Source of the DNA: a virus
Virus record (IMG/VR): IMGVR_UViG_3300028800_000137
Location: 1-49,804 of that record
DNA length: 49,804 nucleotides
Reading direction: 5' to 3' (one strand)
Positions 747 to 27,355 of the stretch are shown in pieces. Under the pieces are notes generated by a model. It made no database searches. It was not told the origin of the DNA and saw only the letters and a program-made list of their open reading frames with translations. Position 1 is the first letter of the stretch, and every line of letters begins with the position of its first letter. A program made the position numbers and the translations under genes.

Positions 747-3728
747 TCACTCAATGAAGTATACCGTTCGAGTATCGGCGGGGAAGTAGACTTTTTCATC
801 GAAGTCACAGGTGGTCGGCACCAGCTGCACGCCCCTGCCATGGGCGGTCACCGTCAGCACCGTGGTGCTGACGGAAGCTGTTGTAAAGCTCGTAACGATT
901 CCGGTCGCTCTCACGTTGAGCACGGTGGACGCAGCGATGAGCTGTTGTTCCACTCTTCCGGTGCCAGACGCACTTACCACCAGCGCCGTGGATCTTCCAA
1001 CCAACCCTGGCGACGCCACCAGCTGCCCGAGCGCGGACAATGCCAGTGCGGTGACTGCACCCGAGGCGCCGATGGACTGAGCCGCAAGACCGGATGAGCT
1101 GACATTGAGGATCGTAGCGGCGCCGGACCCGATCGCCACACCAGCTGCGGTTCCGGCGGCTGACATGGAAAGAACGTTGACCGCGCCAGTCGCGCTCACG
1201 AAACCAGTCATGGTGCCAGCCGCCTGAACCACCAGCGGTCGCGCAACACCATAGCAAAGGCTCGCGGCGCCAAAAGAACCAACTGCCGACATCGTTAGAA
1301 CCGTGCCGGTGCCGATGGCCGAAGCGACATACGACATGCTGCCGGAAGCACTGACCGTCAACGCGGTTACGACACCGGTTGCTGGGGTTTGCAGCATGGC
1401 CGAGCCAACCGCACTCATGTTAAGCGCCGTCGATCGCGCCGTGGCGAGGTCCGATTGTCCCCCCTGGCCGGTCGCGCTCATGTTGAGGATCGTTGTCAAT
1501 CCCTGAATCGATGGATTGAACGCGATGTTTCCCGTAGCCGTGATGAGCAGCGCTGTTGGTGCGCCAGCACCGACGATGGTAAATGCCGCCGTCCCACGCG
1601 CCTTAACTTCAAGCATGAACCCGTAACCGGATGCTGGGGTGTACAGGAACGTGGTTCCAACGGCCGACATCGAAAGAGCTGTCGCGGAACCATACGCGCC
1701 AGATAGGAACGCCATCGACCCAGAGGCTGAAATTTGGAGTGCGCGTGCCACCCCACTTGCGATCGTGGACGGGCCAATGGTTCCACTAGAACCCAACGTG
1801 AGAATCGTGGACTGACCACTTATCGGAGCGGCTTGCCCAGCAACCCCGATCGCGTTTACCTGAACGAGGGTTGATACCCCACTTATGGGCGCCTCAAGAC
1901 GCCCTGAGGCAGTTGCCGAGATAACCAGGGGGATCGATACCCCCGACGCAATGACGACGGGTGAGGCAGTGCCCTGCGCCGACATGGCGAAGACCGTGGC
2001 GGCGCCCGTCAACGCGACTGGCGCATCCATCGTTCCGGTGGCGTTGATTTGAAGCGCAGTGCTGATCCCGAAGAGAGTGGCGGCTGATGTGAGCGATCCC
2101 GTCGCGCTCAACACGAGGACCGATGAGCTTCCCGATGCCAGGACTGGGTTCGATACAGCACCAACAGCACTCACGGTAAGTGCCGTGGCAGTCCCGGTCA
2201 TCCCGTAACCGATGATCGCGTTGCCACTCGCGGACATCGTGAGGATTGTTACCGAAGTTCCCTTGTAGAACTCCGATGTTGCCATATCCCACGTGGAACC
2301 ACTTGGGCGTCGGTTCCGGTTGATGTCATCCTGAGCCGGGATGTCCGCTGCGTCCGGCACACCAGCATTGATAAGATCTGCTGTTGGAAGAAATCTGAAG
2401 TCGGTGGTTGGAGAGATGAACTGATTGGCGGCGGGTTTTGAGAACAGGTTTCCGCCACCATCGGTGACGTTGCTGCCAATTAGATTGTTGGAAAACAGCG
2501 TGTGATCAGCTACGATACCCCCAGCGATGTCTGGAGAAATGAGACCCTGATAACCGATGATCGCGCAGTTGCGGACCGTGACCGCGCCGGGCGTGGATGT
2601 GTGACATAGGACCGCGTAGACCCCAGCGGGTGAGTTGACTCCGATGAAAGTGCAGTTGACGATATGGGCACCGTTCATCACTCTCATCGGAATGTTGACG
2701 CCACCGGTCGCTGGCTGACGGTCGATGATGATGGTGTTGGTAACCGTAACGAATTCATTGAACTGCAGAATGTCGGCGCCACCGCCCTGAGCATAGGCAT
2801 CCACGATGCAGTTTCGCATCACGAACCCGGTCGCGCCGGAGTTCACGACGATCATTGAGCATTGATCAGCCGGGTCCTGATCGTTGAATTGAAACCCATC
2901 GATGGTAACGTTGGGGTTTGCGATGGTGAACCAATTCAGCGGAAACGGTGCCCGCCCAACTGGCATAACAGCGCTGGCACCGTTGGCGCTGTTGAAGCTA
3001 AGCGGAACGCTTCCAGTGAGATCACGAAAGCCATCGCCGGGCGCCGGCATCAACCCAATGTAGTTCTGAGATGTTGTCGTATGACCAGTTATGGTAAGAT
3101 AACCGTTACCATCGACAGGATTGACCTGCACTGCGCTGTCGTTCCACACCAGTCCAATCATTGGATTGGTAAGAACCGCTGGTAGTCCATTTGACCATGA
3201 TTGAAGTGTCGTGTAATCGATCGTGGACATGAACGTCCAAGTCGCGGTCCCATCGGTTATGACGGTTCCGGTTCCAGATGGACCAGCTCCCACAAAATTC
3301 TGTGAACGGCCCGCCCCAACGCATCGATATGCACTCGATCCGTTGCTGACGCGCGCACCGACACTGTACAGAGTGTTTGGGACCCAAGCCTGCAAACCAT
3401 AATGAATGTTTTGATAGATGATCGTGGGTGCTGCCGCTGCAGCAACACCAACGCTCGACATATTCAGTATGGTGGGCGAACCGGCCGCCGCAACCGGGCG
3501 CATAATTCGCCCGGATGCGTTGATCGTGAGAGCAGTTGCGATACCCTTAAACGTGGGTTGATACGCGGACCCAACTGCCCTTAATGTAAGACACGTCGCA
3601 ACACCAATCGCACCATTGACCGTGACTGCGGTGCCGTAACCTGACACCGACAACACGGTGACTTGGCCGGATAATGCATCACCATCACCAAAGTCAGATG
3701 AAAAGTCTGTGGTGAATGGCCCAGCCAT
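747..3728 (-). CDS. Large tail fibre: beta-helix plus about 22 tandem 21-residue repeats
   Basis: A 993-residue fibre-like protein. Residues ~12-85 hold three or four copies of a short repeat (GxATALxxxAxG pattern). Residues ~113-160 form a small aromatic module, WVPNTLYSVGARV ... GPSGTG ... DGTATW, also seen in the gene at 5383. Residues ~165-490 look like a right-handed parallel beta-helix (pectate-lyase-like) with rungs such as NVTIDGFQF and FVMRNCIV. From about residue 510 to 973 the short repeat resumes as about 22 units, nearly all exactly 21 residues long. The last 20 residues (KVYFPADTRTVYFIE) resemble an end piece common in phage fibre operons. The start is an ATG sharing one base with the upstream stop (TAATG at 3726-3730), suggesting translational coupling to the glycosyltransferase-like gene. 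Likely role: host-surface binding or spacing. No catalytic site was identified. Confidence 0.8.
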   Translation of the reverse strand: MAGPFTTDFSSDFGDGDALSGQVTVLSVSGYGTAVTVNGAIGVATCLTLRAVGSAYQPTFKGIATALTINASGRIMRPVAAAGSPTILNMSSVGVAAAAAPTIIYQNIHYGLQAWVPNTLYSVGARVSNGSSAYRCVGAGRSQNFVGAGPSGTGTVITDGTATWTFMSTIDYTTLQSWSNGLPAVLTNPMIGLVWNDSAVQVNPVDGNGYLTITGHTTTSQNYIGLMPAPGDGFRDLTGSVPLSFNSANGASAVMPVGRAPFPLNWFTIANPNVTIDGFQFNDQDPADQCSMIVVNSGATGFVMRNCIVDAYAQGGGADILQFNEFVTVTNTIIIDRQPATGGVNIPMRVMNGAHIVNCTFIGVNSPAGVYAVLCHTSTPGAVTVRNCAIIGYQGLISPDIAGGIVADHTLFSNNLIGSNVTDGGGNLFSKPAANQFISPTTDFRFLPTADLINAGVPDAADIPAQDDINRNRRPSGSTWDMATSEFYKGTSVTILTMSASGNAIIGYGMTGTATALTVSAVGAVSNPVLASGSSSVLVLSATGSLTSAATLFGISTALQINATGTMDAPVALTGAATVFAMSAQGTASPVVIASGVSIPLVISATASGRLEAPISGVSTLVQVNAIGVAGQAAPISGQSTILTLGSSGTIGPSTIASGVARALQISASGSMAFLSGAYGSATALSMSAVGTTFLYTPASGYGFMLEVKARGTAAFTIVGAGAPTALLITATGNIAFNPSIQGLTTILNMSATGQGGQSDLATARSTALNMSAVGSAMLQTPATGVVTALTVSASGSMSYVASAIGTGTVLTMSAVGSFGAASLCYGVARPLVVQAAGTMTGFVSATGAVNVLSMSAAGTAAGVAIGSGAATILNVSSSGLAAQSIGASGAVTALALSALGQLVASPGLVGRSTALVVSASGTGRVEQQLIAASTVLNVRATGIVTSFTTASVSTTVLTVTAHGRGVQLVPTTCDFDEKVYFPADTRTVYFIE
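810..2268 (-). repeat. Tandem 63-bp (21-residue) repeat array inside the fibre gene
   Basis: About 22-23 consecutive units of 21 amino acids, degenerate at DNA level but in strict register. Typical units are GSATALSMSAVGTTFLYTPA and GTGTVLTMSAVGSFGAASLC. The core is G-x-x-T-(A/V)-L-x-(M/V/I)-S-A-x-G-(T/S), followed by about 8 variable residues. The alternation of hydrophobic and small residues suggests two short beta strands and a turn per unit, as in a fibrous shaft or beta-solenoid. Three or four more units lie at the N-terminus near 3470-3700. Confidence 0.85.
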
Positions 3729-5299
3729 TATGAGATGGTTCTCAGTTCGTCATGAACATTGCGAAGAACACTGGTCCAATCACCAGGGCGTGACTGACGG
3801 AATATCTTCATCGTGGGATACCAGGGGGACGTATCACGACCGTCCCACAGCCAACGCCAACAGGCATCGAACCGACTCAACAACCACACGCGCTTTCCGA
3901 GCGCGCCCGCGAGATGCGCCACCGCGCTGTCGATCGTGATGACCAGATCAAGCTGATCCACGATCGCGGCGGTGTCGAGCATGTCGAACGAATTGTCAAG
4001 GGGCTGAAACAGCCGTCGATCCGCGACCCGGTGATCCTCGAGTTGAAGACTGATGAAATCATATCGATCCGAAAGAAACAGAAGATGGCGCATCTCTTCG
4101 AATGGCATCGATCGTCTGCGATCGACTGCGTTGGCGCGCAGATTGTCGGGCCGCGCGGCGCCCGCCCATACGAGCCCGATGCGTGGTCTTCCGTTGTCAG
4201 GAAGTTGACGTTGCTCAGCGACGGCAGCCGGGACTGACAGATACGGCACCGTGGCTGGGATGGTATCCAGCGTGGTTTGAAACAAAAACGGTGCGTCGAG
4301 CATCGGCACCGAAACTGTGCAGTAAGCGGTCTCCTCGATGGTGGTGACGACGCTGTAAGGCACCCCAAGATCCAGCGTTTGCAGCAGACGAACGAGCTTC
4401 TGAGGAACACCGATCGTCACATGAGACGCGTGCTCGGCGATCATTCGGGCGTATCGGACGAACTGAAGCGTGTCACCGAATCCCTGCTCATGGTAGAACA
4501 GAACGTTCCTTCCGCGCAGGTCGCTAAGTGAGTTAACCATCGGCTGATCGACCCGCTTCACGAAGTCGTGTTGCGTCTCCTGCACGTGAAAACGATGACG
4601 ATACGGGGCCCACGCATCCGGCCACTTCCCGAGGCCAAGCATCAGTAACGCCTTGTTGAAGAGCGTCCCGTGACGGATCGACACCAGGTGCCGATCTTCG
4701 ATGAGTTCGAGCGCCTGTTTATACGCCCCCTGTTCGATCATCACGCAGACGATGTTGTTGTCGATCTCTTCAAGCGTATCCAGGGGGGTGGTTGCGCGGT
4801 CCACATCGTCGTAGCACTTGAGCGCGCTGGTGTATTGGCCCAGCATGTGAAGGACGAACCCCTTGCTCAAGTTGGCGTGATAGTAGCCGGGGTCGATCGA
4901 AAGAACGTGGTCGAAGTCCTTCACCGCTTCGGACCAGTTTCTCAAGTGAATGTGCGTCAGCCCGCGCATGAACCTGATCTTGACGTGATCCGGATGCTCC
5001 TTCACGCCGTTCTCAAGGAACATCATCGCGCGCGAATACAGCTTCTTATCCATCGTCGCGATGGCCGCGTTGACGAACCACTCTGGTTCAGCCTGAGTCA
5101 ATGACAATGACGCGCAAAGCCAGTCGATCCCATCCACCTCTTTTCCGAGATGAATAAGCGCGAGTCCCGCGATGTGGATGTAGTTCAGCGCATCGGTATC
5201 GCGAAGATGCCGGCCCACGTCCGCGAGCACACCCTCGTGATCGCCCACCATGAGCTTATCCCAGATGAGCTTTCTGCCAAGATCATTCACCAAATCCAC
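3728..5299 (-). CDS. TPR-glycosyltransferase (GT9/GT41-like C-terminal domain)
   Basis: A 523-residue protein with a GTG start at 5299, preceded by GGGGA. Residues ~1-250 are helical TPR-type repeats (for example the Trp-Ser-Glu-Ala-Val-Lys-Asp-Phe-Asp unit near 125). Residues ~255-520 match the glycosyltransferase-B domain found after TPRs in many bacterial proteins. Landmarks are EQGFGDTLQFVRYA near 268, IGLVWAGAARPDN, ITIDSAVAHLAGALGKRVW near 452, and a Trp-rich end with SPWYPTMKIFRQ. Family members are related to heptosyltransferase/O-GlcNAc-transferase folds and are thought to move sugars from activated donors. No signal peptide, so probably cytoplasmic. It sits between fibre genes and is coupled to the downstream 993-residue fibre, so it may glycosylate a virion protein or a host surface sugar; the substrate is inference. 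The domain call is firm, the target unknown. Confidence 0.85.
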   Translation of the reverse strand: MDLVNDLGRKLIWDKLMVGDHEGVLADVGRHLRDTDALNYIHIAGLALIHLGKEVDGIDWLCASLSLTQAEPEWFVNAAIATMDKKLYSRAMMFLENGVKEHPDHVKIRFMRGLTHIHLRNWSEAVKDFDHVLSIDPGYYHANLSKGFVLHMLGQYTSALKCYDDVDRATTPLDTLEEIDNNIVCVMIEQGAYKQALELIEDRHLVSIRHGTLFNKALLMLGLGKWPDAWAPYRHRFHVQETQHDFVKRVDQPMVNSLSDLRGRNVLFYHEQGFGDTLQFVRYARMIAEHASHVTIGVPQKLVRLLQTLDLGVPYSVVTTIEETAYCTVSVPMLDAPFLFQTTLDTIPATVPYLSVPAAVAEQRQLPDNGRPRIGLVWAGAARPDNLRANAVDRRRSMPFEEMRHLLFLSDRYDFISLQLEDHRVADRRLFQPLDNSFDMLDTAAIVDQLDLVITIDSAVAHLAGALGKRVWLLSRFDACWRWLWDGRDTSPWYPTMKIFRQSRPGDWTSVLRNVHDELRTIS

Positions 5300-5982: not shown

Positions 5983-7047
5983 TTATGAATAGCTGCTGAA
6001 GCTGGCGGAGTCAACCGTGCCAGCGACGGAACCGGGGAAGAAGCTGGTGCTGCCAGTCCCAGTGATGATGCTCCCAGAGGTTACGTTGTAACGTTGACCG
6101 GTGGCGCTTCCCGTGAAGGAACCGCCGTTGTTGGTCAAGCACGAGTTCTGAGACACCAGCGCGAAGGCGTTCGAGAAGTTTGGCGTTCCAGTCACCGTCA
6201 CCGCAGCGCTCGATGCGATGACGCCCATCGTGTCGAGATACGTGTGACACGGTGCGGCGCCCGCGATCGAATAGGGCGATGACAGCAGAATGGTTGAGTG
6301 AGCCGCAGCGCGAACATGAGAGAACCCGCAGGCACCAAACCGAACGGTCCCGGTCAGGTTCACGCTGCCGGTGTTGACGCACACGAGGCCGATCCCGGCT
6401 GATCCACCAGTCCCGGTCCCAGTCGCCTGCAACGTGTAACCACCACCGATGGTGAGGGTCGCATCCGCCACCAGCAGTGCCGCGCCGTTGAGCGCCGAGA
6501 TTACGACGTTGCCGGGGTTGGCGATGTTGCCGACGAGCGTCATCGGTGGTGTGCCGGGACCAAACACCGCGATCGACTGCCCGCTTGTCGCGGTGTAAGT
6601 CCCATCAGCGAGGTTGATCGTCGCCGCGAACCCGGCGAAGTCCCACAGCGACGAGATCGCAGTGATCGCCCCCTGGATCGTCCGAAACGGCGCTGCTGTC
6701 GTCAACCCGAGGTTGGTGTCGTTCCCGGTCGATGGGTTCACGTAGAAGTTGGTGTTGGCGGTGAATCGGCGGCGGGTGGTGGCCTGGATCGACGCGATGA
6801 AGTTGGCGAGAAGCGTCGCAGTCGTGCCGTCATCGGTCGCGTTCGCACCGCTTTGGTTGGCGATGAACTGACCGATCATCGAGGCGATGATGGATGACTG
6901 CCGAACCGTCTTGTTGAAGAGCGCGCTGCTCGCCTGACCCGATTGAACGCCGGTCGGAATCTCGCTTCTGGCAGCATACTGCGGCTGGGACAGAACGTTT
7001 GCCCCAGCACCGCCCGCGAAGACCAGAAAGTCGTTGGATGCTGCCAC
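5983..7047 (-). CDS. Tail fibre protein with parallel beta-helix domain
   Basis: A 354-residue protein. The N-terminal ~95 residues (NDFLVFAGGAGANVLSQPQY, then helical segments through NKTVRQSS and ANFIASI) are a common phage fibre attachment domain. From about residue 103 the sequence YVNPSTGNDTNLGLTTAAPF begins a pectate-lyase-superfamily beta-helix with the usual Ile-Gln-Gly-Ala-Ile strand. Short repeating hydrophobic strands run to the end. The C-terminal Ser/Gly/Thr-rich strands look like a trimeric tip. No catalytic residues are recognisable, so it may bind rather than cleave. It lies 14 bases downstream of the giant enzyme-bearing tail protein. Confidence 0.75.
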   Translation of the reverse strand: MAASNDFLVFAGGAGANVLSQPQYAARSEIPTGVQSGQASSALFNKTVRQSSIIASMIGQFIANQSGANATDDGTTATLLANFIASIQATTRRRFTANTNFYVNPSTGNDTNLGLTTAAPFRTIQGAITAISSLWDFAGFAATINLADGTYTATSGQSIAVFGPGTPPMTLVGNIANPGNVVISALNGAALLVADATLTIGGGYTLQATGTGTGGSAGIGLVCVNTGSVNLTGTVRFGACGFSHVRAAAHSTILLSSPYSIAGAAPCHTYLDTMGVIASSAAVTVTGTPNFSNAFALVSQNSCLTNNGGSFTGSATGQRYNVTSGSIITGTGSTSFFPGSVAGTVDSASFSSYS

Positions 7048-7061
7048 AGTGATCCCCTATA

Positions 7062-10000
7062 TCACAGCGCGAAGAGCCAATCGTAATACTGCTTCCCCAT
7101 TGGCAGCGGGTAATAGGTGTCCCACACATCGTGGCCAAGGTTTGGATCTTGTGTATATCGCATCTGTCCAGACGGTGCCTTACTTCCGTTACCAGCGCCA
7201 CCACCATATGCGGCATACATCGCCTGATCCCAGAAGAGCGGAACCTGATCATCCTGGGCGCCGTGGATCGCCCAGATACCAACGTTGGTCAACCCAGAAA
7301 CGACTGACGGCTGAGGCGTCGGATTACCCCAGTCATAAACCGCACCCGCCAACGGCATCGCGCCCTGGAATATCTTACCCTTCGTCCCAGTCTTGTTGTT
7401 GTACTTGATGATGTAGTCCCAGCTTCCGATACCACCCATCGAGTTTCCTGTAACGAAAATCTTGTTGGTGGCGATGGAATACTGCGACCGGAACTGCGCG
7501 ATCAACGCAATGATGTTGGTTTCTGAGGCCTGAGTTGTCGTTGACACGCCGCCCCAGTTGATGGTGTTACCGGAACTGTCCGCCGTTTGATCCAACAGCG
7601 GGGCGAGGATGAAGCACGGGTAGGATGTACGAAACGCAGTCGAGTTGAACCACGGATCAATCTGATCTTGAACGATGTCATTTCCGGAGTAGGCTGGGGT
7701 GCCCTGATCGAGCTGATGCAGATATAGCACGAATGGGTAAGTAAACGTTGGGTTATAGTTGGATGGCCGAAGGAACTTATACTTCATTCCGTTGATGGTG
7801 CCGATTTCCCATATTCCTGGCGCCGCACTACTGAGGGGAGCCTGGATCAGATTTCCGTTGCCGCTCGGCGGCGGTGGCGGAACCGGAGTGGCAGCAATGA
7901 TGGCCGCGACCTGCGTTCCATACGGGCTCGTGATCTTGTTCGCCCCGTTCGTGAGGTTATCCGCGCCCGCGCCGGACGCCCAATGCCAATACGTGCAGAT
8001 CAGCCCGCTATCACCAACTGCCTTGACAACCTGAGTCGCGTTCGGATCGACATCACCGCCGTTGGTCGAATCACCCGACTCACCGATGATAACCGGGACG
8101 ATACCATCTGCACTTGTGATCGTCTGAGCAGCGACGACCCCCTGGCCAGCAGCGACTGACCCCTGGAGCGCCGCGTTCACCGTCGCTTGGTCAGTGCTGT
8201 TTCCGCTGACCCAGCCATAATAGTGAAGGTCCCAAACGATGTTGCGCATCGTCGCATAAGACGACGCAGTCATGCCAAATCCGGCACCGATCGTCCCTGG
8301 GTTACCACCACCAGGCAGTTCCATCGCGACGATGGTGTTGTTGCCCGTCGCGCGGATTGCGTTGTAGATCGCGACCTGCTGAGTCGTGATCGCCGCGCCA
8401 CCGTTCTGGTTTCCCGGTTCGTTATAGGTTCCGAACCAAACGTATGGATTTCCCTTGAAGGTGGATGCGAGACTGGTGTACCAGGCGAGCTCCGCCGTCA
8501 ACTGTGACCCGGTGTAGGGCGGGTTGCTGATGCCGGTGTGGTCCTCGATGATGATGACGATCCCGAGGGCACTGCACCGGGCCGCCAAATTGGTGATCTG
8601 GCTCACCGGTGGGTAGGACGAACCCGGATTGTTGGCATAAGCAACGCGGATGATCTTCGTGCCGGGAAAGAGCGTCAGAAGCGGCGTGGCGGCAGCGTTC
8701 GACACGACCGAATCAGCCTGCTCCCAGTATATGTTCAACCCCTTCCCGATCCATGGGTTGCCGTCCGGGCCGATCACCTTTCCGCCCGAGACCGAGAATG
8801 AACCGGTCGGAACGGGGGTTGGCGTCGGGGTTGGAGTCGTCGAGAACGGTCCGGTGGTTGTCCCGTTGGTTGGTGACCAGGTCGCAGTCGGGCTTGTCTT
8901 TGACCACCAAAGTGATGCGTTGTTCTCCTGCCACATCAGCCCGCTCTTCCAGGCGAGCTCGATGACGTTCGCGGTGGTCGCGTCCACTGTTCCGTTGACC
9001 GTGACCTGGCCACCGGTGATGCCCCAAACGTTACCGCTATTATCGGTCAGTGTCTGGGTAGATGGAGCGGTGATGAAGCTGCCATCGGCGGACGGCCCAG
9101 TGCTGACCGTTCCGACCGAGTAGGTGGTCGTGCCAACGGTCCCAGCGGTGTCCGCGATCTTCAGCGTGTGCGAACCGGCCGACATCGCGGAGTGAGTGAA
9201 CGCCAGCGATGAAGCGGTGATCGTGGCGCCCGCAGGGAGCTGCTGAGCGGTGCCGTTGTCGTCAGTATATGTCAGGGTGGGTGGGCCTGCGTAACCCACC
9301 AGCGCCGCTGTGATGGTGAAGGAAGAACCCGTCAGCACGTTGACCGGGGTGTTGATGTTGATCGACTTCGTGCCGGTCTGCGATCCCGTGTTGAGCGGGG
9401 GTGGTCCCGCAACCAGGGGGTTTCCGACGCCCTTCCGCGAGGTCGGTCCGAGTTGGTTCTTCAGCACGCACAGTCGGGAAACGATCTGATTGAAATATTG
9501 ACGCATCTCCGCGATCCTCGGGTGAGAATCAACGGACGGCTCGGTGTAGAGGGTTACACCGCCGGTCGCGGTGTCGCGCCATGCCCAACCGTAGTACTTC
9601 GCGTTGCGATACAGCATCAACGCGCCGACCGGCCAGCCAGTCGGCTCAGGATCGCTGGCCGGGATGCAGAGGGTCGCACCGATCGGCATGTTTCCGGTGT
9701 AGGTGGTCGGGGCGTTGTAGTCGCCGTGGGTCTGCGGCCACGCGATGTATGGCATCCCGGTCACGGGATTGATCGAGGTCGTGTCGTTCCAGGCCGGTGG
9801 CGCGTTCAGCTGACTCCAGTCGCAGGCAAACCGAAGCGTATGCTGAAGCAGCATGCTCGGGTTCGTGGATGGGTCGAGTTCCCACGCCCGAATGACGCCC
9901 ACCCCCTGGTTGTAGCCGAAGTTGCCAGTGCTCTGGTCTTCCATCAACCCCGAGGCATCATCGACCTCCGCGTTGCCGCATTGAAGCGTTGTGGTGCCCG

Positions 10001-13000
10001 CCTGAATGGTGCTTCCGTCCGCCAGTGCACCACCGAAGCACCACATCTTGTAAGGCTGCGTCGTGTCGAACACGTTCAGCTGGTTATCACCTGGGTAGGG
10101 TCCTGCGGAGGAAGCGCCGACCGGAATGTGAACGCTCGCGGTGAGGTTCGGGTCGCGTTGCGTGCCGGTGCCGCCGGACGACACCACGGTGACCAGGGGG
10201 TCTGATGCCGACCCAACCCAGATCGGTGCGCCGAAGTTCGATCCATTGATCGTGTTGGCCTTGCGGGCCGAGATCGTCATCGGCTCGGTTGGGCCACTGA
10301 GGATTGCGCCGTCCTTGATTGGCGTGTTCCAGAATGACTGATCCGACCCCGGCTGGTTGGTATAGGTGCGCGTGACGCCACCGACAATGGCCTGGGTGGT
10401 GCAGGGCACGACGATCGAGACCGGTCCGGCGGTCGCGCCGGCAACCGCGTGAACCCGAAGATAGTATGTGGTGGACTGGCTCAGTCCGGTGACCGTGACG
10501 CTGAGACCGGATGTTGGGCTGAGAGCGGTCCAGTTACTGACACCGTCGGGGGAAATCTCGGCGATGTACGTGATGCTGTTGCCCATAACTGCTCCCCAAC
10601 TCAGGGTGATTGATGACGTTGTGGCGGACGCCTGAAGCGCCGTGGGTGTGCCAATACTTCCGCCACTTCCAGTCCCAGTAAGCCCGGAGTAGGCCAGGTC
10701 GATGATTGATGCCGCTCCATACCCGCGAACACCGTAGTAGTCGATACCATAGTTTGTGCCAACGGCCGCGTTTATTGAACCACTGAACGCAAAAAATCCG
10801 TCGATGATTCCGACGTGCTTGACAACCTCATCGATGAGTGCCTGCCACCACGCTGATCCAAGGGTGTAATCGGACGGCGGTGGCCGTGACACGACCGTTT
10901 CGGGTGAAACCTGGTTACCGGTCGCCGGGACGATCCCAGAAGCGTTGATGATGATCTTGCGGCCGAGCTGACGCGCGTAAAGATCCAGGGCGACGAACAG
11001 CGGGTGGTTTCCCGTCGCGCCATTCGTCAGTGGGTTCGGGTCAACCGTGGTGTCGAACACCGCCTCAATCGTCGGTTGCGTTGTGGTCGACAGCAGCGCG
11101 TTCGGGAAGATGTTGAAGACCACCGCGTCCCAGAAGTCCCACTTCGCGGACCAGTCACTCTGCGGGGTAGTGATGCCGAGCGCTGCCTGATTGGCAGCGT
11201 ATGAGATGACACCGCCGGGCCACGCCGCCTTGCACGTCGCGTAGATCGACTGCCATTGCGCCTGATGAACCGGCGAGAACGGCCCGGTATCGCCAGCCGC
11301 CTTGCCAGCCCACGGCTGCAGCTCAACACCACACCACATCCCGGTCGCGCCGGCACTAAGCCCAAGCTGAGCAACCTGAACACAGACGGTCTGAAGCGCT
11401 GTGAAGAAATTTTGAACTGCTGCGAATGACGGTCCGGGAGTGATCGTTTGAATCGTGGAACCATCACGACAGGTGACGTTCACCGCCAAGAAAACTGCAT
11501 ATCCACGCGCCAACGCGTTGGCAATCCACGTTGCCGTGGTCGACAGTGGGACATCGAATTGCACGTCTGAGGAGGTCTGAGAAGCCGTTGAGCATACCAC
11601 CGGTATGACCACTGAATTGACGTTCGGCATGTCACTGCTGACGCCAGCGAAACCGGTTACGGATAGATCCGATGGGATCATGTTGATGCCACGGAACCGC
11701 AGAAACGAGTGAGCCGGAGCTGATGTCGTAACAATCACTGGCGCGGATGTCGGACCGTTGCCTGCTGCGCTTGCTGGTGTGACTTGAACATTATAGCTAG
11801 TTGAGTCGAGCAAGCCACTGATTGTCGCGCTCGAACCAGTTACCGTCGCCCCATTGATCCAGGGAGCGGTGTTCGTCGCTGACGGTGCGGTTGGCGCGTT
11901 TGAAGCAATCCAGGCTTTAACTGCTGTTCCTTGAGGTGCGATCGTTCCCGTTGAACCACTGGTATAGCGATACAGATAATAGTCGGTCTGAACACCCGGC
12001 ATCTGATATAGCATATACACACATCCACCGCAACACCCAGCTTCTGTGTTGGTTACGGCAGCGTGATTATGCATGCTGGTCATAATGCCGGTTATCCGGG
12101 TTCCGGCGTCCGACTCATACGATGTTATGTTTCCAGTGCTTGAACCAAATTCAGTAAAGAATAGTGGCCGTCCTGCCGGCTTCTGAAGTGTGAAAGTGTT
12201 CAACCCACCGTTAAAGTTGGCTGGATCAGTCATCTGATCCGGGGACGAAGGACCGTTGGTGTCATTGTACCAATGAACAACGGTGAAGTCCCACATCAGG
12301 TTGCGACCACCCTGAGGGGTGTAACTCACAAGATCAGCAGCAAGCGCGAGAGTGAATCCCTGAAAAGTCCATCCAGACATTACACTGCAAAGAGCCTGCG
12401 AATTTGGACCACCCTTATCACGGATTGCCGCAACTGCACCAGCCATTGCGCCGCGATACAAAGGATAAGACGCCTGAGAATTATAATCAGACGCTAATAA
12501 TCCTCCATTAGATGGAAGCACCAGTGGTGATTGTAAGATCCACTCGTTACCAATCTCCCACACAAGATTGTTTGGTGCTGAAGCAATACTGGCAGCAACG
12601 CTTGCATAAGCGAAGTTATATGCAGCCGCTTCATTCGCAAATGCAGTCCAGGTCGGATAGGTGATCACCATCACGATCGGAATGATGCCGGCTGCCTGAA
12701 ACTGCGAAACAGCACTGGCAAACCCAGTTTGAACACCATCGCCAAATGCACGGTACACGACCGTCCCTGGAACAGTTCCAAAAATGTTTTGAAGATCTCG
12801 AATCTGTTGAGCGATCGGAATAGTTGTGTATGGTCCACCTTGGTCAAAGTGACCGGCGGCCCCCCACATTTGACTTCCAGCCCGAAGGTTCAACGGCGCA
12901 GCAATTACTGTGCCTCCGGACTGAAGTTGGTACTGAACACTGTAATCAACAACAGTGCCAGTTGCGGAAGGTGTCCACGAAAACGATGCCGAATACGCTG

Positions 13001-14051
13001 TTATGGTTCCGACAGTAACGTTGGTTGGAATGCTTGGTGGAAGTGTTACCCCAGATACTCCATTATCCCATGTCTGAAAGCCTGCCGGAATACCAACACC
13101 GATGTGTGATCCAACGTTATTACCAGTTCTCAGTATGCATACGCCCTGACCAAGATCATCGTTAAAACAGATGTAAAATGGTCCGCCTGTCAACGCTGAA
13201 ATCGAGATCCCACCGACCCCAGTAGCTGGATTGGCGGTTAATTGGTTGTTCCAGGCTCCCGCGCCGATCGCGCTTATCATCGCCCCGGAAGTAAACCATA
13301 ACAACATCGCGTTCAAGTCAACCGCAATGACACATTCATCACCTGCGATTGAAGCAGCAGAGTTCAGCGCTGTAAGCTGAACATCATTGATGAAAACAGC
13401 CTGAGGTGGAGATACAGTATAAACACCAACACTTACCCCACCATCAGATGAACCAAGAAGATTTGGCAGGGGGAACTGAGCTGAAGCAAGACCAATCGCG
13501 GCGTCAGCTCCAATTGAAGAGAACACGCCCGAAAAGACGAACTTTCCAGTTGAGTGGCTAGTTGTCGATCGGACAGAAGCAGCGTTTCCCGTAACAAGGA
13601 CCGCTGTTGCAGTAAGATGAGTTACGGTATCAAGCGTAACGTTGTTCAGATCACTTGGATTCCACGTCGTTACCGTGCCAGTAGACCCAGTGGTGCTTCT
13701 AGTGACGATCGCGGAAACCGGGCCGGAACCAACGTTATTAAAGCAATACACCTCGAAGTCGTATGACTGACCCGTCTCCAAACCAGTCACCGTTGTAGTG
13801 ACGGTTCCAACGTTTCCAAGAGCACTTCCAGTGCTGATGACTGGAGCTGTTAGTTTTGTCCATGTGGTGGACGCTGACAATTTGTAGCTTACAACATACG
13901 CTCTGGAGCCAGTCGCAACGGTGTCAGCATACCAAGACAGACTGATGGTGGTTGATGTCGCAGCGGTTGCCGACAGTCCAACAACCTGTGCCGGAAGAAC
14001 ACCAGGGAGTGTTATGGCTAGAATGTTGGACGGCGCACCCAGAAGAGACAT
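7062..14051 (-). CDS. Giant multi-domain tail protein with glycosidase, GH5-like and esterase domains
   Basis: 2329 residues. Order as I read it: FnIII-1 (~15-115); SPRY/concanavalin-like domain (~124-330); first half of FnIII-2 (~335-385); inserted TIM-barrel glycosidase (~386-715) with WEIGNEW near 497 and FFTEFGSS near 636 as acid/base and nucleophile candidates; second half of FnIII-2 (~725-775). Then a second TIM-barrel-like domain (~780-1120, GINMIPSDLS start); FnIII-3 (~1127-1222); an unassigned domain starting SFWNTPIKDG (~1222-1553); an Ig-like domain; a Trp-rich binding-like module ending WWSKTSPTATW; a TPTPTPTPVPT linker. Then a GH5-like glycosidase (~1746-2050, YNEP near 1875, GESGDS near 1987), a proline linker, and an alpha/beta-hydrolase esterase (~2068-2329) with GNSMGG near 2200, an Asp in HGAQDDQ and a His in NLGHDVW. 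The ATG follows AGGAAGTGA, which overlaps the upstream stop. Probable surface-polysaccharide depolymerase; substrate unknown. Confidence 0.85.
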   Translation of the reverse strand: MSLLGAPSNILAITLPGVLPAQVVGLSATAATSTTISLSWYADTVATGSRAYVVSYKLSASTTWTKLTAPVISTGSALGNVGTVTTTVTGLETGQSYDFEVYCFNNVGSGPVSAIVTRSTTGSTGTVTTWNPSDLNNVTLDTVTHLTATAVLVTGNAASVRSTTSHSTGKFVFSGVFSSIGADAAIGLASAQFPLPNLLGSSDGGVSVGVYTVSPPQAVFINDVQLTALNSAASIAGDECVIAVDLNAMLLWFTSGAMISAIGAGAWNNQLTANPATGVGGISISALTGGPFYICFNDDLGQGVCILRTGNNVGSHIGVGIPAGFQTWDNGVSGVTLPPSIPTNVTVGTITAYSASFSWTPSATGTVVDYSVQYQLQSGGTVIAAPLNLRAGSQMWGAAGHFDQGGPYTTIPIAQQIRDLQNIFGTVPGTVVYRAFGDGVQTGFASAVSQFQAAGIIPIVMVITYPTWTAFANEAAAYNFAYASVAASIASAPNNLVWEIGNEWILQSPLVLPSNGGLLASDYNSQASYPLYRGAMAGAVAAIRDKGGPNSQALCSVMSGWTFQGFTLALAADLVSYTPQGGRNLMWDFTVVHWYNDTNGPSSPDQMTDPANFNGGLNTFTLQKPAGRPLFFTEFGSSTGNITSYESDAGTRITGIMTSMHNHAAVTNTEAGCCGGCVYMLYQMPGVQTDYYLYRYTSGSTGTIAPQGTAVKAWIASNAPTAPSATNTAPWINGATVTGSSATISGLLDSTSYNVQVTPASAAGNGPTSAPVIVTTSAPAHSFLRFRGINMIPSDLSVTGFAGVSSDMPNVNSVVIPVVCSTASQTSSDVQFDVPLSTTATWIANALARGYAVFLAVNVTCRDGSTIQTITPGPSFAAVQNFFTALQTVCVQVAQLGLSAGATGMWCGVELQPWAGKAAGDTGPFSPVHQAQWQSIYATCKAAWPGGVISYAANQAALGITTPQSDWSAKWDFWDAVVFNIFPNALLSTTTQPTIEAVFDTTVDPNPLTNGATGNHPLFVALDLYARQLGRKIIINASGIVPATGNQVSPETVVSRPPPSDYTLGSAWWQALIDEVVKHVGIIDGFFAFSGSINAAVGTNYGIDYYGVRGYGAASIIDLAYSGLTGTGSGGSIGTPTALQASATTSSITLSWGAVMGNSITYIAEISPDGVSNWTALSPTSGLSVTVTGLSQSTTYYLRVHAVAGATAGPVSIVVPCTTQAIVGGVTRTYTNQPGSDQSFWNTPIKDGAILSGPTEPMTISARKANTINGSNFGAPIWVGSASDPLVTVVSSGGTGTQRDPNLTASVHIPVGASSAGPYPGDNQLNVFDTTQPYKMWCFGGALADGSTIQAGTTTLQCGNAEVDDASGLMEDQSTGNFGYNQGVGVIRAWELDPSTNPSMLLQHTLRFACDWSQLNAPPAWNDTTSINPVTGMPYIAWPQTHGDYNAPTTYTGNMPIGATLCIPASDPEPTGWPVGALMLYRNAKYYGWAWRDTATGGVTLYTEPSVDSHPRIAEMRQYFNQIVSRLCVLKNQLGPTSRKGVGNPLVAGPPPLNTGSQTGTKSININTPVNVLTGSSFTITAALVGYAGPPTLTYTDDNGTAQQLPAGATITASSLAFTHSAMSAGSHTLKIADTAGTVGTTTYSVGTVSTGPSADGSFITAPSTQTLTDNSGNVWGITGGQVTVNGTVDATTANVIELAWKSGLMWQENNASLWWSKTSPTATWSPTNGTTTGPFSTTPTPTPTPVPTGSFSVSGGKVIGPDGNPWIGKGLNIYWEQADSVVSNAAATPLLTLFPGTKIIRVAYANNPGSSYPPVSQITNLAARCSALGIVIIIEDHTGISNPPYTGSQLTAELAWYTSLASTFKGNPYVWFGTYNEPGNQNGGAAITTQQVAIYNAIRATGNNTIVAMELPGGGNPGTIGAGFGMTASSYATMRNIVWDLHYYGWVSGNSTDQATVNAALQGSVAAGQGVVAAQTITSADGIVPVIIGESGDSTNGGDVDPNATQVVKAVGDSGLICTYWHWASGAGADNLTNGANKITSPYGTQVAAIIAATPVPPPPPSGNGNLIQAPLSSAAPGIWEIGTINGMKYKFLRPSNYNPTFTYPFVLYLHQLDQGTPAYSGNDIVQDQIDPWFNSTAFRTSYPCFILAPLLDQTADSSGNTINWGGVSTTTQASETNIIALIAQFRSQYSIATNKIFVTGNSMGGIGSWDYIIKYNNKTGTKGKIFQGAMPLAGAVYDWGNPTPQPSVVSGLTNVGIWAIHGAQDDQVPLFWDQAMYAAYGGGAGNGSKAPSGQMRYTQDPNLGHDVWDTYYPLPMGKQYYDWLFAL

Positions 14052-14058
14052 TCACTTC

Positions 14059-15819
14059 CTAACCGTTGATGGCAGTAACTCTGAAGTTGTAAGTGTAACC
14101 AGCCGACAGCCCAGTAACCGTTGCGCTGGTCGTGGGTGCCGTTACCAGTGGCCCACTTGCCCAGGTTGCATCGCCATCCACTTGATACTCGACTTGATAC
14201 GAAGTTGCCAGTGGAACCGCCGCCCAGGAGATCGTCGCGGACGTCGTGGTGTCCGAAACCAACGTGAGAGGTCCAACCTGACCCGGTGCGGCTGCTGCTG
14301 TGGTGACGCTCAGTGGCGCGCTGATTGGCCCGCTGCCGGATGCGTTCGTCGCGTATGCCGTGAAGAGATACCCGGTTGCCGGCTGGAGCCCAGTGATGTC
14401 GGCGGTGAACGTCGAGCCGGACGTGGTGATCAGTCCGGTGAAGTCCTGATACACGACCGGCGTGGTGTTGATCGCATACCGGACGTGGTAAGTGAACGAT
14501 CCCGCACCGGACGGCGCCTGACCCGACACAACAACATCCGTCGCGTTGATCGTCACCGCGCTCAGTGGCGCGATCTGACCCGGCACGGAGCCCGCCGTTC
14601 CATAAGTGATTGGTGTCGACGTGGGGCCGGTGCCACCAGCCGTTGTGACATACACCTCAAAATCATACAGTGTCGATGGCGCAAGGCCAGTGAGCGTGAT
14701 GGAAGTCGCACTAGTTGTGCCGGCTGTCGTGAACGTTCCGTTTCCACTGATCCGCGAAAGAACGGTGTAGGTTCCGCCCGACCCCTGGGCACTCCAGGAA
14801 AGAAGGATGGTCGTGGTGGTGGAGCTAACACCCTGCAGGTTCTGAACCTGACCTGGTGCCCCGTTAGACGTGGTCGCGACAACCGATATGGACGGTGGCC
14901 CGGCGCCCGCGTTGTTAACTGCATAGACCTCAAACTCATAGCTCGCGGCGGTCTGCAAGCTGCCGATCGTGGTAACCGTCGATGTCGTTGGCTGTCCGAT
15001 GAGAGAAAACGGTCCGGTACTCCCAGCGATTCGATACTGGACCTGGTATGAGTTTGAACCCGTTCCGCTCGTCGGAGAAAGCCACGATAGTGTTACGCTG
15101 TTGCTGCTGACACTGACGATCGTAAGCCCGGTCACCTGACCCGGACCGGTGCCGAGCGCACCGGACCACGCCCCGACATCCCAACCAGAGATGACCGAGT
15201 TTTCAACGTCCCACCCGAACAGCGCAACACCGTTGATGGACGTTATGACATACGACACACCGACGCTTTCCGGCGCGACCACGAGCTCCCCGTTCTCGAG
15301 CAGCGCGATCAACACCGCCGGGGGAACCACGCCGCTGATACCAACGGTCATGGTCATGTCAAAGTTGTCCTTGACGGACACGTTGACCCCGGGGTAGTCA
15401 GCAAACAGTTGCGTCAACGCCGCGACGGCAGCGGTGATCGTTCCGTTCATCCGGTTGAGGATGATCTTCGCACGGAGCAGCTGCCGATACGTGTAGTCAT
15501 CGAGACTTACAAGACCGGTCGTGGGATCGAACGCCCCCTGCCAAGCGCCCTGATCCCAGCCGAGGTTAAGCGTATCCCACGAAAAGTAGACGCCATTTAA
15601 TGGGATGCTGACGCGCCGCGATCGGCCAATCCACAGCCCCACTTGATCGAGCTGAACACCCTTGGCGGTGTCGAGGTCAAACGCGAGCTGAAGGCTACCC
15701 TGGATGAAGTTTTGAACATCAACCAACGGCTGAACGAGCGCCGTCACCGTCGCCATAAAGTTGGGCGCCGAGGCGTGAGGTCTCGTTATGAGATCCGTAT
15801 AAACAGTGATGTCAACCAT
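14059..15819 (-). CDS. Baseplate-to-fibre protein: DUF2612 domain plus four fibronectin III domains
   Basis: 586 residues. Residues 1-~205 match the DUF2612 family that follows baseplate J genes in myoviruses (gpI-like position). Visible landmarks are FIQGSLQLAFDLDTAKGVQL, DQVGLWIGRSR and YRQLLRAKIILNRMNG. Four FnIII domains follow (about 215-310, 312-405, 407-505, 507-586), each opening with PGQV/PGQI and containing a Tyr-x-Phe-x-Val-(Y/T)-A-x-N strand. The fourth stops at NFRVTAING, without its last strand. The stop TAG is part of the ribosome site of the giant gene downstream, whose own first domain is also FnIII. The ATG overlaps the stop of the baseplate J gene. Likely role: a baseplate rim protein that carries the fibres. 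Confidence 0.8.
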   Translation of the reverse strand: MVDITVYTDLITRPHASAPNFMATVTALVQPLVDVQNFIQGSLQLAFDLDTAKGVQLDQVGLWIGRSRRVSIPLNGVYFSWDTLNLGWDQGAWQGAFDPTTGLVSLDDYTYRQLLRAKIILNRMNGTITAAVAALTQLFADYPGVNVSVKDNFDMTMTVGISGVVPPAVLIALLENGELVVAPESVGVSYVITSINGVALFGWDVENSVISGWDVGAWSGALGTGPGQVTGLTIVSVSSNSVTLSWLSPTSGTGSNSYQVQYRIAGSTGPFSLIGQPTTSTVTTIGSLQTAASYEFEVYAVNNAGAGPPSISVVATTSNGAPGQVQNLQGVSSTTTTILLSWSAQGSGGTYTVLSRISGNGTFTTAGTTSATSITLTGLAPSTLYDFEVYVTTAGGTGPTSTPITYGTAGSVPGQIAPLSAVTINATDVVVSGQAPSGAGSFTYHVRYAINTTPVVYQDFTGLITTSGSTFTADITGLQPATGYLFTAYATNASGSGPISAPLSVTTAAAAPGQVGPLTLVSDTTTSATISWAAVPLATSYQVEYQVDGDATWASGPLVTAPTTSATVTGLSAGYTYNFRVTAING

Positions 15820-17000
15820 CAGCCGATGACCACCGAGACGGTTGCCGTCGAGGCGGTCGCACGCTCAGTGAAGGCAATCCCAACGTTCGCGGCACTGGGC
15901 GTCGCTTGACCGCGCGCGATGAGAATGGAGATGATGTTGAATGAGGCCGCGTCAGAACCACTCAGGCTGGCCGGGCCGAACAGCCGGGTGAACACCACCG
16001 ACGATCCGATGCTTAACGCATTGATGGCGTCAACGACTGCGTTGACGATGCTGGCGCCGATCGCACTGCTGTAACCAATCAGGGGGGTGATGTGGATGAC
16101 GACAGTGATCGGGACGTATGTCGGGCGGTAGAAACTGATGGTGCTCGGAACACCGTTGCTGTCGACAACGACGATTTGGGTCGTGCCTATCAGGCCTGAT
16201 CCGATCGTCTTTCGAAGCGCGATCGTGTTGGCGATCGCGGTGGCATCGCCACCATCCACCACATACGCGACCGAATGCCCCGGCACACCGTTGTTGTCTG
16301 GGATGCTGGTTGTATTTTCATATGGAACAACGCTGATGACACCACTCAACGATTCGATCGCCCCAACGACGCCATCCAACGCAGTCTGCGACGGCTGCAT
16401 CGTGGACGCGGCCTGACGCTGACGAAGTTCACCGTCGAGTTCAACCGGATCACCGATGGTTGCACTGCTCGGGTTCGTCACGCTTTGCCAGCCACGTGTT
16501 GGCGTTGAGATCGTGTTGACGGTCCCCGGGTCTGCGGAGATGTTGCCCGCCAGCTGAGCGGTTGCGGTTACGGTGATCTGTCCGGACGGCGGAATAGTGA
16601 CGACAGCCGGAAGAATCCAGACGTTGTCATTGGTGTCAGTGACCCGGCCTCCGATGATCGGTGTTCCCGCGCCGCCAACGATCACGAGGTCCACGACCGA
16701 GTTCGTTGGAAGGTTTCTGGCGATACCGTTGATCTTAACGACAGATGAGAGCCCAACACCCTGCGCCGTCGCAGGTGAATATGAGTTGTACACCGCGAAG
16801 GCAGCCGCGTTTGCGTCGCTGATCGCGAGGGCGAACACCGCCAGCAGTTGCCCATCCTGAGAATCGTTCCCGAGATAAGCATCGCTCCCATAGATGGCGC
16901 GATATTGCGCCTGAAAGTAAGCGAGAACGTCCGCGTAGGCGGGTGCGTGAATGCCCGTCGCGTCGATGTAAGCTGATGTTGGAGAAACGCTGCCGGACAT
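15819..17000 (-). CDS. Baseplate J-like wedge protein
   Basis: A 393-residue member of the baseplate J/gp47 family, which forms the wedge around the contractile tail hub. Visible marks are the N-terminal YFQAQYRAIYGSDAYLGND and DGQLLAVFALAISDANAA, then GRVTDTNDNVWILP. The central ADPGTVNTISTPTRGWQSVT and ELRQRQAAS are hallmark blocks. The expected length is about 350-400. It overlaps the gp46-like gene upstream and the DUF2612 gene downstream by one base each. The gp46, J, DUF2612 order matches other myovirus baseplate operons. Confidence 0.93.
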   Translation of the reverse strand: MSGSVSPTSAYIDATGIHAPAYADVLAYFQAQYRAIYGSDAYLGNDSQDGQLLAVFALAISDANAAAFAVYNSYSPATAQGVGLSSVVKINGIARNLPTNSVVDLVIVGGAGTPIIGGRVTDTNDNVWILPAVVTIPPSGQITVTATAQLAGNISADPGTVNTISTPTRGWQSVTNPSSATIGDPVELDGELRQRQAASTMQPSQTALDGVVGAIESLSGVISVVPYENTTSIPDNNGVPGHSVAYVVDGGDATAIANTIALRKTIGSGLIGTTQIVVVDSNGVPSTISFYRPTYVPITVVIHITPLIGYSSAIGASIVNAVVDAINALSIGSSVVFTRLFGPASLSGSDAASFNIISILIARGQATPSAANVGIAFTERATASTATVSVVIG

Positions 17001-24783: not shown

Positions 24784-27243
24784 TTAGAAGTCGCACGCAC
24801 CACCCGATAGCGCACCACCGCCGATGTTCATGCGAGCCTGTCCGGCGGTGGGGATCTTCATGATGATGCCGATGGTGGTTCCAGTGGCCGGGGTGGCGGC
24901 GTTCGTCACCGTGCCGCCGGTCGCAGTCTGACCGTAATGGAGCGCCGTCGCGGTGCCACTGGTTGGGATGGTGATCTCCGCCGCGCCGTTCTCGGACTGG
25001 CTCGATCCGCAGAAGCGCGTGGCGACGATCGTCGGGAGGCCGGCCGTGGTCGCCGTGGTCATGTTGATGCCGGCGAAGATGTCGCTCGATCCCGCGCACT
25101 TCTGGACGCCCATGTCCGCGCCACCGAGCGAGCCGCTGGTCGTGTAGCAAAGGGTGTTCCCCTGGGCCGCGCCGGTCGCACTCGCATAGATCTCCGGGTG
25201 GCCGATCCAGCTGTTCGGCTGAACAAGCTGAATGGAATACTGGGTCTGGCCGTATGGCACGGAGTTGAGCTGCAGGAGTGGGGTCGATCCGTAGTTGTAG
25301 AGGACGTTGGTCATGTCCCCCTGGATGCGGATACCGCCCGTGCCCGCGTTCGCGTAGTCGATGAAGATGCCAGCCTGCTGACCGGATACCGTCGACAGGC
25401 CCCCAGCGATGAAGTCAAGCGCCGTGTTGAACATCGCACCGCCATCGATCCAATAGTTGAACCGGGTGCCCGCCGGCTGAGCCCCCGCGTCATACCCGGG
25501 CGAGACCTGCAGCCAGTTGTTTCCCTGCATGTGCATCTCACCACCGCCGTCGCCAGCGGTGACCGCGTTCGTCCCGTGGTTCAGGTCCACGATCATTCCC
25601 GCGCCGAGACCCTCAGCGTTGATGCTCGAGAACGTCGAGAACTGGATGTTCTGGCCCGAGGGCTGCGAGTAGCTGTCCTGCGGGCCCTCCTCCAGCCGGA
25701 AGCACATCGGGCTCTGGCCGCAGTAGAACGCCAGCACGTTCGTCTGGTTCCAGAATGCGTCCTTGTCGAGCTGGATGTCGGCGACCGAGTTGTTCTCGAG
25801 ATGGAGGAACCGGAAGAGGTTGTTCCCCGACAGATACTGGTTGACTGGGCCCATCCGGAGCCCGATCGCGTTGCTCGTGAGGATGATCGTGCCGTACTCA
25901 GTGTGGTCCACCCCCTCCCCGGTCATGCCGACGTAGAAGCCGTGCGCGTTGAATCTGTCGATCTGCCGTCTTGCGCCAGCATGAAGACCAATCATGCGGG
26001 TGCTTCCAGGGGTTCCGATGGACGGCATCGACCACCCATTTGGCCCCTGAATGCTGAAGTTCCCGAGGAAGCCGTAATAGGTGTTCGCCCCGTAGCGGCC
26101 AAGGCTATTGTCCCAGGTCGCGTAGGGGACGCCGAACGAGATCGCCGCCCGGCCGGTGCCGAGGTCAGTCGGCCAGTCGAGAAGCGTTCCGACCATTCCC
26201 TGACCAAGAAGGTCAACCGACTTCGTGAACTGAAGCGTTCCGACATCCTCGTGAATGATCAGCCAACCAAGACCACTTCCCGCGACGGTGCTGTTGTCCA
26301 TGATGCAGTGACCAGCCGGAAGCAGCACGGTCCCACCGGTTGGGCTGGCTGTCGCGGCTTCGATCGCTGCCTGAATACCCAGCCAATCCATCTCGGCGGC
26401 TGCCACCATCGCGTCGGTCAATGTCCATGTGGCGTAGACGTACGGATTACTCGATGTCGTTGCTGATGCACTGCGCCGGGACGGCTTCGCACCGGTCAAC
26501 CCGGACCCGATCACCATGGACGCTGGTGGCTGAAACGTGAGGGTGGTGCCGGTCGTGATAGTGCTGGTCGTGCCATACTTCATCGTGATGGTGTTGCTGG
26601 CCAGAGTGGTGACCCAGTCGTCTGGGCTCAATCCAGCCTGCGGAACCGGGTAGGACCCCGCAACGACACCGGTGCCGGATGTCACGACAACCGACTTCTG
26701 AGATGTCCCGGTCAGCGTTCCATTCAGTGTCTTCGTCAGCGTGGATGGTATCCCCGACGAAAGCGATGAGATCGTCGTGGACGGCACCTGAGTTCCCGAC
26801 ACCGACGCGCCGCTCGGCACGCCAACCAATGATTCAAAGTACAGCGTGGTGTTCGTGCTGGCGCCCGGAACAACCAGGGAGAGAGCGACCTTGGGTGTCC
26901 ACTCAGCGTTGTTGATCCACGCATAGGGAGTCGTCCCCGACGCGAACGTGTAAGCCGCCAGCGCGGCCTTGGTGGACACAGTGGGCTGAATGAAGCTGCT
27001 TGTGCTGATCGGGTGATGGTTCCCGTCGCAGACCGCACCGTAGTTTCGCGGGTCGAAGTAGGTCGTGGAGGCTGACAGGTAACTGTTGCGGAGGGTCTGA
27101 AATGAGATCGACCCACCTGGTTGCCCACCACGCAGTTCATACAGCATGTCGACGGATGGTTGCGGCACGTCCGTTGCGCGAACCTGCTCTGACATCAGAA
27201 GTGTGAATGCCAACCCAACGCACACCACGTTTCGGAATGTCAT
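24784..27243 (-). CDS. Secreted pectate-lyase-like/beta-helix protein in the tail cluster
   Basis: 819 residues from ATG 27243, which has a strong GGAG six to seven bases upstream; a GTG four codons earlier is less likely. The N-terminus MTFRNVVCVGLAFTLLMSEQ then VRATDVPQ reads as a Sec signal peptide with cleavage near Ala28. FDPRNYGAVCDGNHHPIS is the standard opening of the pectate-lyase-superfamily beta-helix. It is interrupted by a long Thr/Ser-rich beta segment and resumes with MDWLGIQAAIEAATASPTGG, VLLPAGHCIMDN and many short strands. The end GQARMNIGGGALSGGACDF may form a disulphide. It looks like a fibre but carries an export signal, which is odd for a virion protein. No catalytic residues identified. 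Possible roles: exported depolymerase, surface masker or fibre with a cleavable leader. Confidence 0.75.
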   Translation of the reverse strand: MTFRNVVCVGLAFTLLMSEQVRATDVPQPSVDMLYELRGGQPGGSISFQTLRNSYLSASTTYFDPRNYGAVCDGNHHPISTSSFIQPTVSTKAALAAYTFASGTTPYAWINNAEWTPKVALSLVVPGASTNTTLYFESLVGVPSGASVSGTQVPSTTISSLSSGIPSTLTKTLNGTLTGTSQKSVVVTSGTGVVAGSYPVPQAGLSPDDWVTTLASNTITMKYGTTSTITTGTTLTFQPPASMVIGSGLTGAKPSRRSASATTSSNPYVYATWTLTDAMVAAAEMDWLGIQAAIEAATASPTGGTVLLPAGHCIMDNSTVAGSGLGWLIIHEDVGTLQFTKSVDLLGQGMVGTLLDWPTDLGTGRAAISFGVPYATWDNSLGRYGANTYYGFLGNFSIQGPNGWSMPSIGTPGSTRMIGLHAGARRQIDRFNAHGFYVGMTGEGVDHTEYGTIILTSNAIGLRMGPVNQYLSGNNLFRFLHLENNSVADIQLDKDAFWNQTNVLAFYCGQSPMCFRLEEGPQDSYSQPSGQNIQFSTFSSINAEGLGAGMIVDLNHGTNAVTAGDGGGEMHMQGNNWLQVSPGYDAGAQPAGTRFNYWIDGGAMFNTALDFIAGGLSTVSGQQAGIFIDYANAGTGGIRIQGDMTNVLYNYGSTPLLQLNSVPYGQTQYSIQLVQPNSWIGHPEIYASATGAAQGNTLCYTTSGSLGGADMGVQKCAGSSDIFAGINMTTATTAGLPTIVATRFCGSSQSENGAAEITIPTSGTATALHYGQTATGGTVTNAATPATGTTIGIIMKIPTAGQARMNIGGGALSGGACDF

Positions 27244-27355
27244 ATAATTCTCCACGGATCACGGCTTATACGCATTTTCACGCTGGGCTACTGGGGGCGG
27301 CGTTATATCGAATGGTCATCATCGGGCTGGTTACTTCTTGCCGGTGGTGGGGCTG

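Follow-up and report, generated by a model that had tools for sequence, protein, structure and literature searches.

Phage depolymerases are usually single-enzyme beta-helix spikes. As described in the literature, they are large, trimeric, multi-domain proteins (PMC10653864), TIM barrels account for 10 of the 984 depolymerase folds detected in one survey (PMC11326577), and receptor-binding proteins that combine several enzymatic domains have been noted in general terms (PMC10684548). A soil-virus GH5 enzyme active on mannan has been interpreted as contributing to carbon cycling (PMC6786970). The giant protein studied here resembles the virion depolymerases of the Klebsiella KP34gp57 type (PMC10653864) in that it is large, multi-domain, encoded in a tail locus and expected to degrade host surface polysaccharide. 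The KP34gp57-type proteins are typically one-enzyme trimeric beta-helix spikes, whereas the giant protein joins TIM-barrel glycosidases and an esterase through fn3 linkers and has no trimerization or beta-helix signature. No description of this architecture was found in the literature searched, a weak negative given that subscription journals lie mostly outside its coverage. Because multi-domain depolymerases, TIM-barrel folds and co-occurring enzymatic domains have already been reported, the architecture is rare but of a known kind: unusually elaborate, with two unnamed modules.

The stretch of DNA analyzed (the window) is a complete IMG/VR record of 49,804 bases with the gene set of a contractile-tailed phage: tail sheath, tape measure, baseplate hub and wedge proteins, a DUF2612 protein, portal, head protease, major head protein and terminase. 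The giant gene (P0001) occupies minus-strand positions 7062-14051, and its product of 2329 aa (242 kDa) is encoded in an uninterrupted frame from 14051 to 7065, with the stop at 7062-7064. A frame of this length is far beyond chance and is a real ORF. An earlier note on this DNA had placed the gene at these coordinates with the correct length, and the motifs it quoted are all present: WEIGNEW (residues 498-504), TEFG (633-636), YNEP (1876-1879), GES (1990-1992), GNSMGG (2202-2207), an Asp (2267/2268) and His 2307. Its proposal of two or three glycosidase-like domains and an esterase holds for two apparently intact glycosidases and the esterase; of the remaining domains, one GH113-like barrel is probably dead and one further domain has no family.

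We consider it fairly likely that the product serves this contractile-tailed phage as a modular accessory protein for degrading polysaccharide, directed against an acylated host surface polysaccharide; we infer its virion attachment, the binding roles of its modules, its substrate and the order of cleavage.

The gene lies in the tail/baseplate locus, all on the minus strand, between a DUF2612 gene (14059-15819; PF11041, 4.3e-53) and an ordinary tail-fiber gene (5983-7047; phrog_11303, 1.7e-28). The DUF2612 baseplate-region protein has four C-terminal fn3 domains and is a possible mounting partner. Using the major head protein as query, we gathered 80 related viral loci (57-73% identity). In 14 of the 16 relatives with a readable DUF2612 gene, this gene is followed directly by a tail fiber of 235-544 aa, and those fiber N-termini that were aligned match that of the window's own fiber. 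Since most relatives run from the DUF2612 gene to the fiber, and the window also has that fiber, the giant gene is additional cargo. A role of the giant ORF as the main tail fiber of the phage is ruled out, because the ordinary fiber is the next gene and the giant gene is additional.

Two of the relatives also carry large glycosidase genes in this locus. IMGVR_UViG_3300010396_000045 (G407) has genes of 1049 aa (GH16) and 808 aa in the gap between the DUF2612 gene and the fiber, and IMGVR_UViG_3300048999_000056 (G416) has two such genes farther upstream, ahead of the baseplate wedge gene, one for a protein of 1619 aa (GH39+GH16) and one for a protein of 733 aa (fn3/Trp-rich/GH16); both relatives retain an ordinary fiber besides these GH16/GH39 genes. 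They belong to the phage group of the window (major head protein 71-73% identical) and resemble it in having large modular glycosidase genes in the locus and in the common fn3, SPRY-like, Ig-like and Trp-rich modules. They differ in carrying GH39 and GH16 and not the GH5, GH113-like, D6 and esterase domains discussed below, and in G416 the insertion point also differs. The two G416 genes lie within 6467-13527 of locus L129, which spans G416 positions 33000-52000, and the 1619-aa tail-locus protein also has a further barrel-like C-terminus. Relatives of the whole giant protein were found neither among 50,697 phage records nor in the viral contigs searched, and a whole-protein search of plasmids returned distant esterases only.

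Several other minus-strand genes of the window were recorded. A 608-aa protein between the head and tail genes (29117-30943) combines a GDSL lipase/acylhydrolase with a putative Ig domain and is a second possible deacylase. The portal protein (42530-44506) ends in a C-terminal domain (residues ~514-644) with matches to segments of many giant phage proteins and of minor head proteins. A 523-aa TPR-repeat protein (3728-5299), encoded downstream of the tail genes, has a weak heptosyltransferase-type glycosyltransferase match, and the large ORFs at 747-3728, 24784-27255 and 27627-29141 (993, 823 and 504 aa) have no Pfam or PHROG match.

The first catalytic candidate, glycosidase A (residues 387-718; 11898-12893, minus strand, as are all domains of the protein), had been put forward as a TIM-barrel glycosidase with paired acids. 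PF00150 matches the whole protein in two stretches; the match of glycosidase A, scanned separately, is marginal and covers only part of the profile (2e-5, 24.7 bits against a curated cut-off of 23.5), and a profile search of the PDB gave no match. The presumed acid/base E503 and nucleophile E634 are kept in 7 of 7 sequences. In clan GH-A barrels the catalytic Glu residues sit at the ends of strands 4 and 7. The predicted model of glycosidase A, of low confidence (pLDDT 49), alternates strands and helices as a barrel does; in it, strand 4 stops immediately ahead of E503, and strand 7 ends at E634. Compared with solved structures, this model matches mixed TIM barrels (E about 1e-3 to 1e-2); its best viral matches are an uncharacterized chlorella-virus protein and a GH5-domain protein of Pseudomonas phage POR1. 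We therefore assign glycosidase A to the clan-A glycosidases on its invariant Glu pair, with the low-confidence barrel model as support only.

Relatives of glycosidase A occur in bacterial genomes and in three viral contigs. The three bacterial relatives (L024-L026) have export-signal-like N-termini, and in two cases Wzz/Wzc, flippase or glycosyltransferase genes of exopolysaccharide (EPS) synthesis are found nearby. They belong to the same family as glycosidase A and keep the Glu pair, and two have Trp-rich modules; unlike the giant protein they are free-standing secreted enzymes outside phage tails, at 26-28% identity. On one viral contig (L140, 7614-8762), a stand-alone 382-aa relative follows a short N-terminal segment near a terminase-like gene.

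Glycosidase A interrupts an fn3 domain, a nesting absent from the earlier note. The left flank (residues 336-383; 12903-13046) matches only fn3 profile positions 1-44 and the right flank (residues 722-780; 11712-11888) only positions 40-92, while the joined flanks match the full profile. The N-terminal third of the gene that ends here also differs in composition: residues 1-722 have a GC3 of 0.44, compared with 0.65-0.78 for the remainder of the gene and 0.62-0.89 for nine other genes. This fits a recent acquisition of the block. The corresponding drop in GC, from about 0.60 to 0.50 for residues 1-720, together with the origin of the sequence in a single uncultured contig with no close copy, could also reflect an assembly chimera fusing the tail genes of two phages. 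We regard such a chimera as highly improbable, as the reading frame is kept, one of the two composition shifts is the gene's own start (the other comes after glycosidase A), the fn3 halves around glycosidase A are complementary, no direct DNA repeat of at least 24 bases that could seed a misjoin exists in 6500-16500, and the relative G416 likewise has multi-glycosidase tail-locus proteins.

A domain of about 340 residues that the earlier note missed, D6 (residues 1223-1562; 9366-10385), matches minor tail proteins in 35 Gordonia phage records (at 24-26% identity, with E as low as 2e-6), and is also found in a secreted Sphingomonas protein and two further bacterial proteins. Asp1322, His1404 and Asp1493 are invariant across eight sequences. 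D6 has no match in Pfam or the PDB, and its predicted structure (pLDDT 33) is too low in confidence to give a fold. One Gordonia record annotates its D6 protein as a glycosylhydrolase. D6 may be a further polysaccharide-active enzyme. The Gordonia minor tail proteins (for example GalacticEye gp9 and Stormageddon gp18) share D6 with the giant protein; they differ in having a single D6 with other C-terminal parts, in which GH5, GH113 and esterase domains were not recognized. The Sphingomonas D6 gene is flanked by flippase and glycosyltransferase genes, with a Wzz-type gene in the same stretch, as in an EPS cluster. The EPS-cluster setting of cellular relatives of both domains (two of three for glycosidase A, the Sphingomonas protein for D6) lends indirect support to a plausible activity against an acylated sugar of the host surface.

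The second TIM-barrel-like domain suggested earlier corresponds to D4 (residues ~785-1132; 10656-11699). Viral and genome contig scans gave no match to D4; the six-frame search of 399 sampled Pseudomonadota genomes that followed gave a single one (E=3.4e-6), to a bona fide GH113 protein (PF22612, 2.7e-45), a member of a mannanase family with solved structures. Against the GH113 profile itself D4 scores 16.9 to 25.5 bits, and with the matched GH113 protein left out, hhalign gives a weak alignment (E=0.19) with the same residues in register. D4 is akin to GH113 by these sequence comparisons: like the GH113 mannanases (PF22612; PDB 3civ, 5ylh, 7dv7), with which it aligns over the barrel, it keeps the acid/base Glu (E910). 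It departs from them in the nucleophile column, where Glu is found in 12 of 12 GH113 proteins and D4 has Ala1037, and in the loss of the invariant Lys-Pro and a Trp. With the nucleophile replaced, D4 is probably not a hydrolase, and we do not file it as an active GH113 enzyme; the earlier suggestion is corrected accordingly to a GH113-like barrel.

The C-terminal part of the protein holds a GH5 domain (residues 1745-2050; 7902-8819) and an esterase domain (residues 2060-2329; 7065-7874), as had been proposed from the YNEP and GES motifs and from a terminal serine hydrolase. The GH5 domain covers positions 35-269 of the 272 in PF00150, a full-length match (3.6e-21), and matches PDB 4y7e/3wsu (E about 2e-4). 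The roles of its Glu residues (acid/base E1878, nucleophile E1991) were assigned from GH5 motifs: E1878 of YNEP aligns with the NEP of 4y7e, and E1991 of GES is placed by motif only. The esterase is an alpha/beta-hydrolase of the PHB-depolymerase type (NF050058, 1e-8; TIGR01840, 6e-8; PDB 3doh, 8.7e-13) with an intact triad, in which S2204 and the Asp (D2267 or D2268) align with 3doh and H2307 with 4q82. Because its matches fall below the curated NCBIfam cut-offs, we do not assign its substrate. Neither domain searched alone matched a phage record at E<=1.

Enzymes acting on plant polymers exist within GH5, GH113 and GH16/39, and the soil-virus GH5 has been shown to be an endomannanase, so the giant gene might instead be an auxiliary metabolic gene degrading plant or environmental polymers, as proposed for that enzyme (PMC6786970). 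The soil-virus genes are likewise virus-encoded GH5; in the window, GH5 makes up a single domain of the giant tail-locus protein. We judge an auxiliary role improbable, since fusion has placed the domains in a single structural-locus protein alongside fn3 and phage-specific modules, the GH113-like domain has no nucleophile and the closest cellular relatives of glycosidase A and D6 are encoded near genes for EPS synthesis.

The enzymatic domains are interspersed with smaller modules. The fnIII domains reported earlier are borne out, with PF00041 matching the whole protein in four stretches (3.7e-26): besides the split domain, fn3 domain 1 (residues 17-124; 13680-14003; PF00041 and kin) is 42% identical to fn3 of the DUF2612 protein, and fn3 domain 3 (residues 1133-1220; 10392-10655) matches best over 1135-1216. 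The labels SPRY-like (residues 125-335; 13047-13679) and Ig-like (residues 1566-1650; 9102-9356) fared less well, as neither stretch has Pfam support, the SPRY-like one giving no match at E<=10 and hence no SPRY membership. Both nevertheless recur in G416, the former within a common fn3/SPRY-like block (34% over residues 16-376, 9.9e-30) and the latter at 40% over residues 1559-1649. The Trp-rich module (residues ~1651-1740; 8832-9101) recurs ahead of GH16 in G416 (L129) and, as tandem pairs, ahead of glycosidase A relatives in two bacterial proteins (L024, L025). Because it co-occurs with glycosidases, its distribution suggests a candidate new carbohydrate-binding module.

The number of binding-type modules, and a GH113-like barrel lacking the nucleophile, Lys-Pro and Trp, would suit a protein that is mainly an adhesin, in which barrels and sandwich modules attach to host glycans and little or no catalysis is left. 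The catalytic residues of glycosidase A, GH5 and the esterase are intact, and we find this account quite improbable.

The protein could also be a soluble, non-virion hydrolase, made in infection and freed at lysis, that thins slime or biofilm for the progeny. No anchoring domain was recognized in it, and glycosidase A and D6 have cellular relatives that are secreted as free proteins. We nonetheless hold a soluble enzyme to be unlikely, given a gene that sits among baseplate genes and adjoins the tail fiber, fn3 domains akin to the ones in the DUF2612 protein, and the presence of D6 in annotated minor tail proteins of other phages. Our preferred reading, an accessory virion enzyme, rests on the location in the structural cluster, GH5 and esterase domains with catalytic residues, the Glu pair of glycosidase A, the EPS-gene neighborhoods of cellular relatives of glycosidase A and D6, D6 in Gordonia minor tail proteins and the cargo of G407 and G416. 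The missing anchoring domain, the missing trimerization or beta-helix signature and the low confidence of the glycosidase A model count against it.

As an accessory virion enzyme, the giant protein would be carried at the tail tip or near the baseplate, perhaps through fn3 contacts with the fn3-bearing DUF2612 protein. The GH113-like barrel and the Trp-rich, Ig-like and SPRY-like modules would bind sugar of the host EPS, the C-terminal esterase would strip acyl groups that would otherwise block the glycosidases, and glycosidase A and GH5 would cut backbone bonds of the host exopolysaccharide or capsule, clearing a path for the ordinary fiber. A bolder version, which we put forward tentatively and think doubtful, sees a virion-borne single-chain multi-enzyme machine acting on one host EPS. 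It would combine glycosidases of different families, the esterase, D6 as a new enzyme family and the Trp-rich module as a new type of carbohydrate-binding module, and the phages in this group would exchange the enzyme set as cargo between baseplate and fiber genes.

Taken together, the giant protein probably helps the virus through the slime coat of its host. If this is true, the chain of barrels and esterase would amount to a natural mixture of enzymes acting on acylated slime. Two of its modules, D6 and the Trp-rich one, point to families not yet described. When GH5, GH16 and GH39 genes turn up on viral contigs from the environment, they are commonly interpreted as auxiliary genes of carbon cycling; in this phage group the three families occur within tail-locus proteins, where a role in entry is the likelier one.
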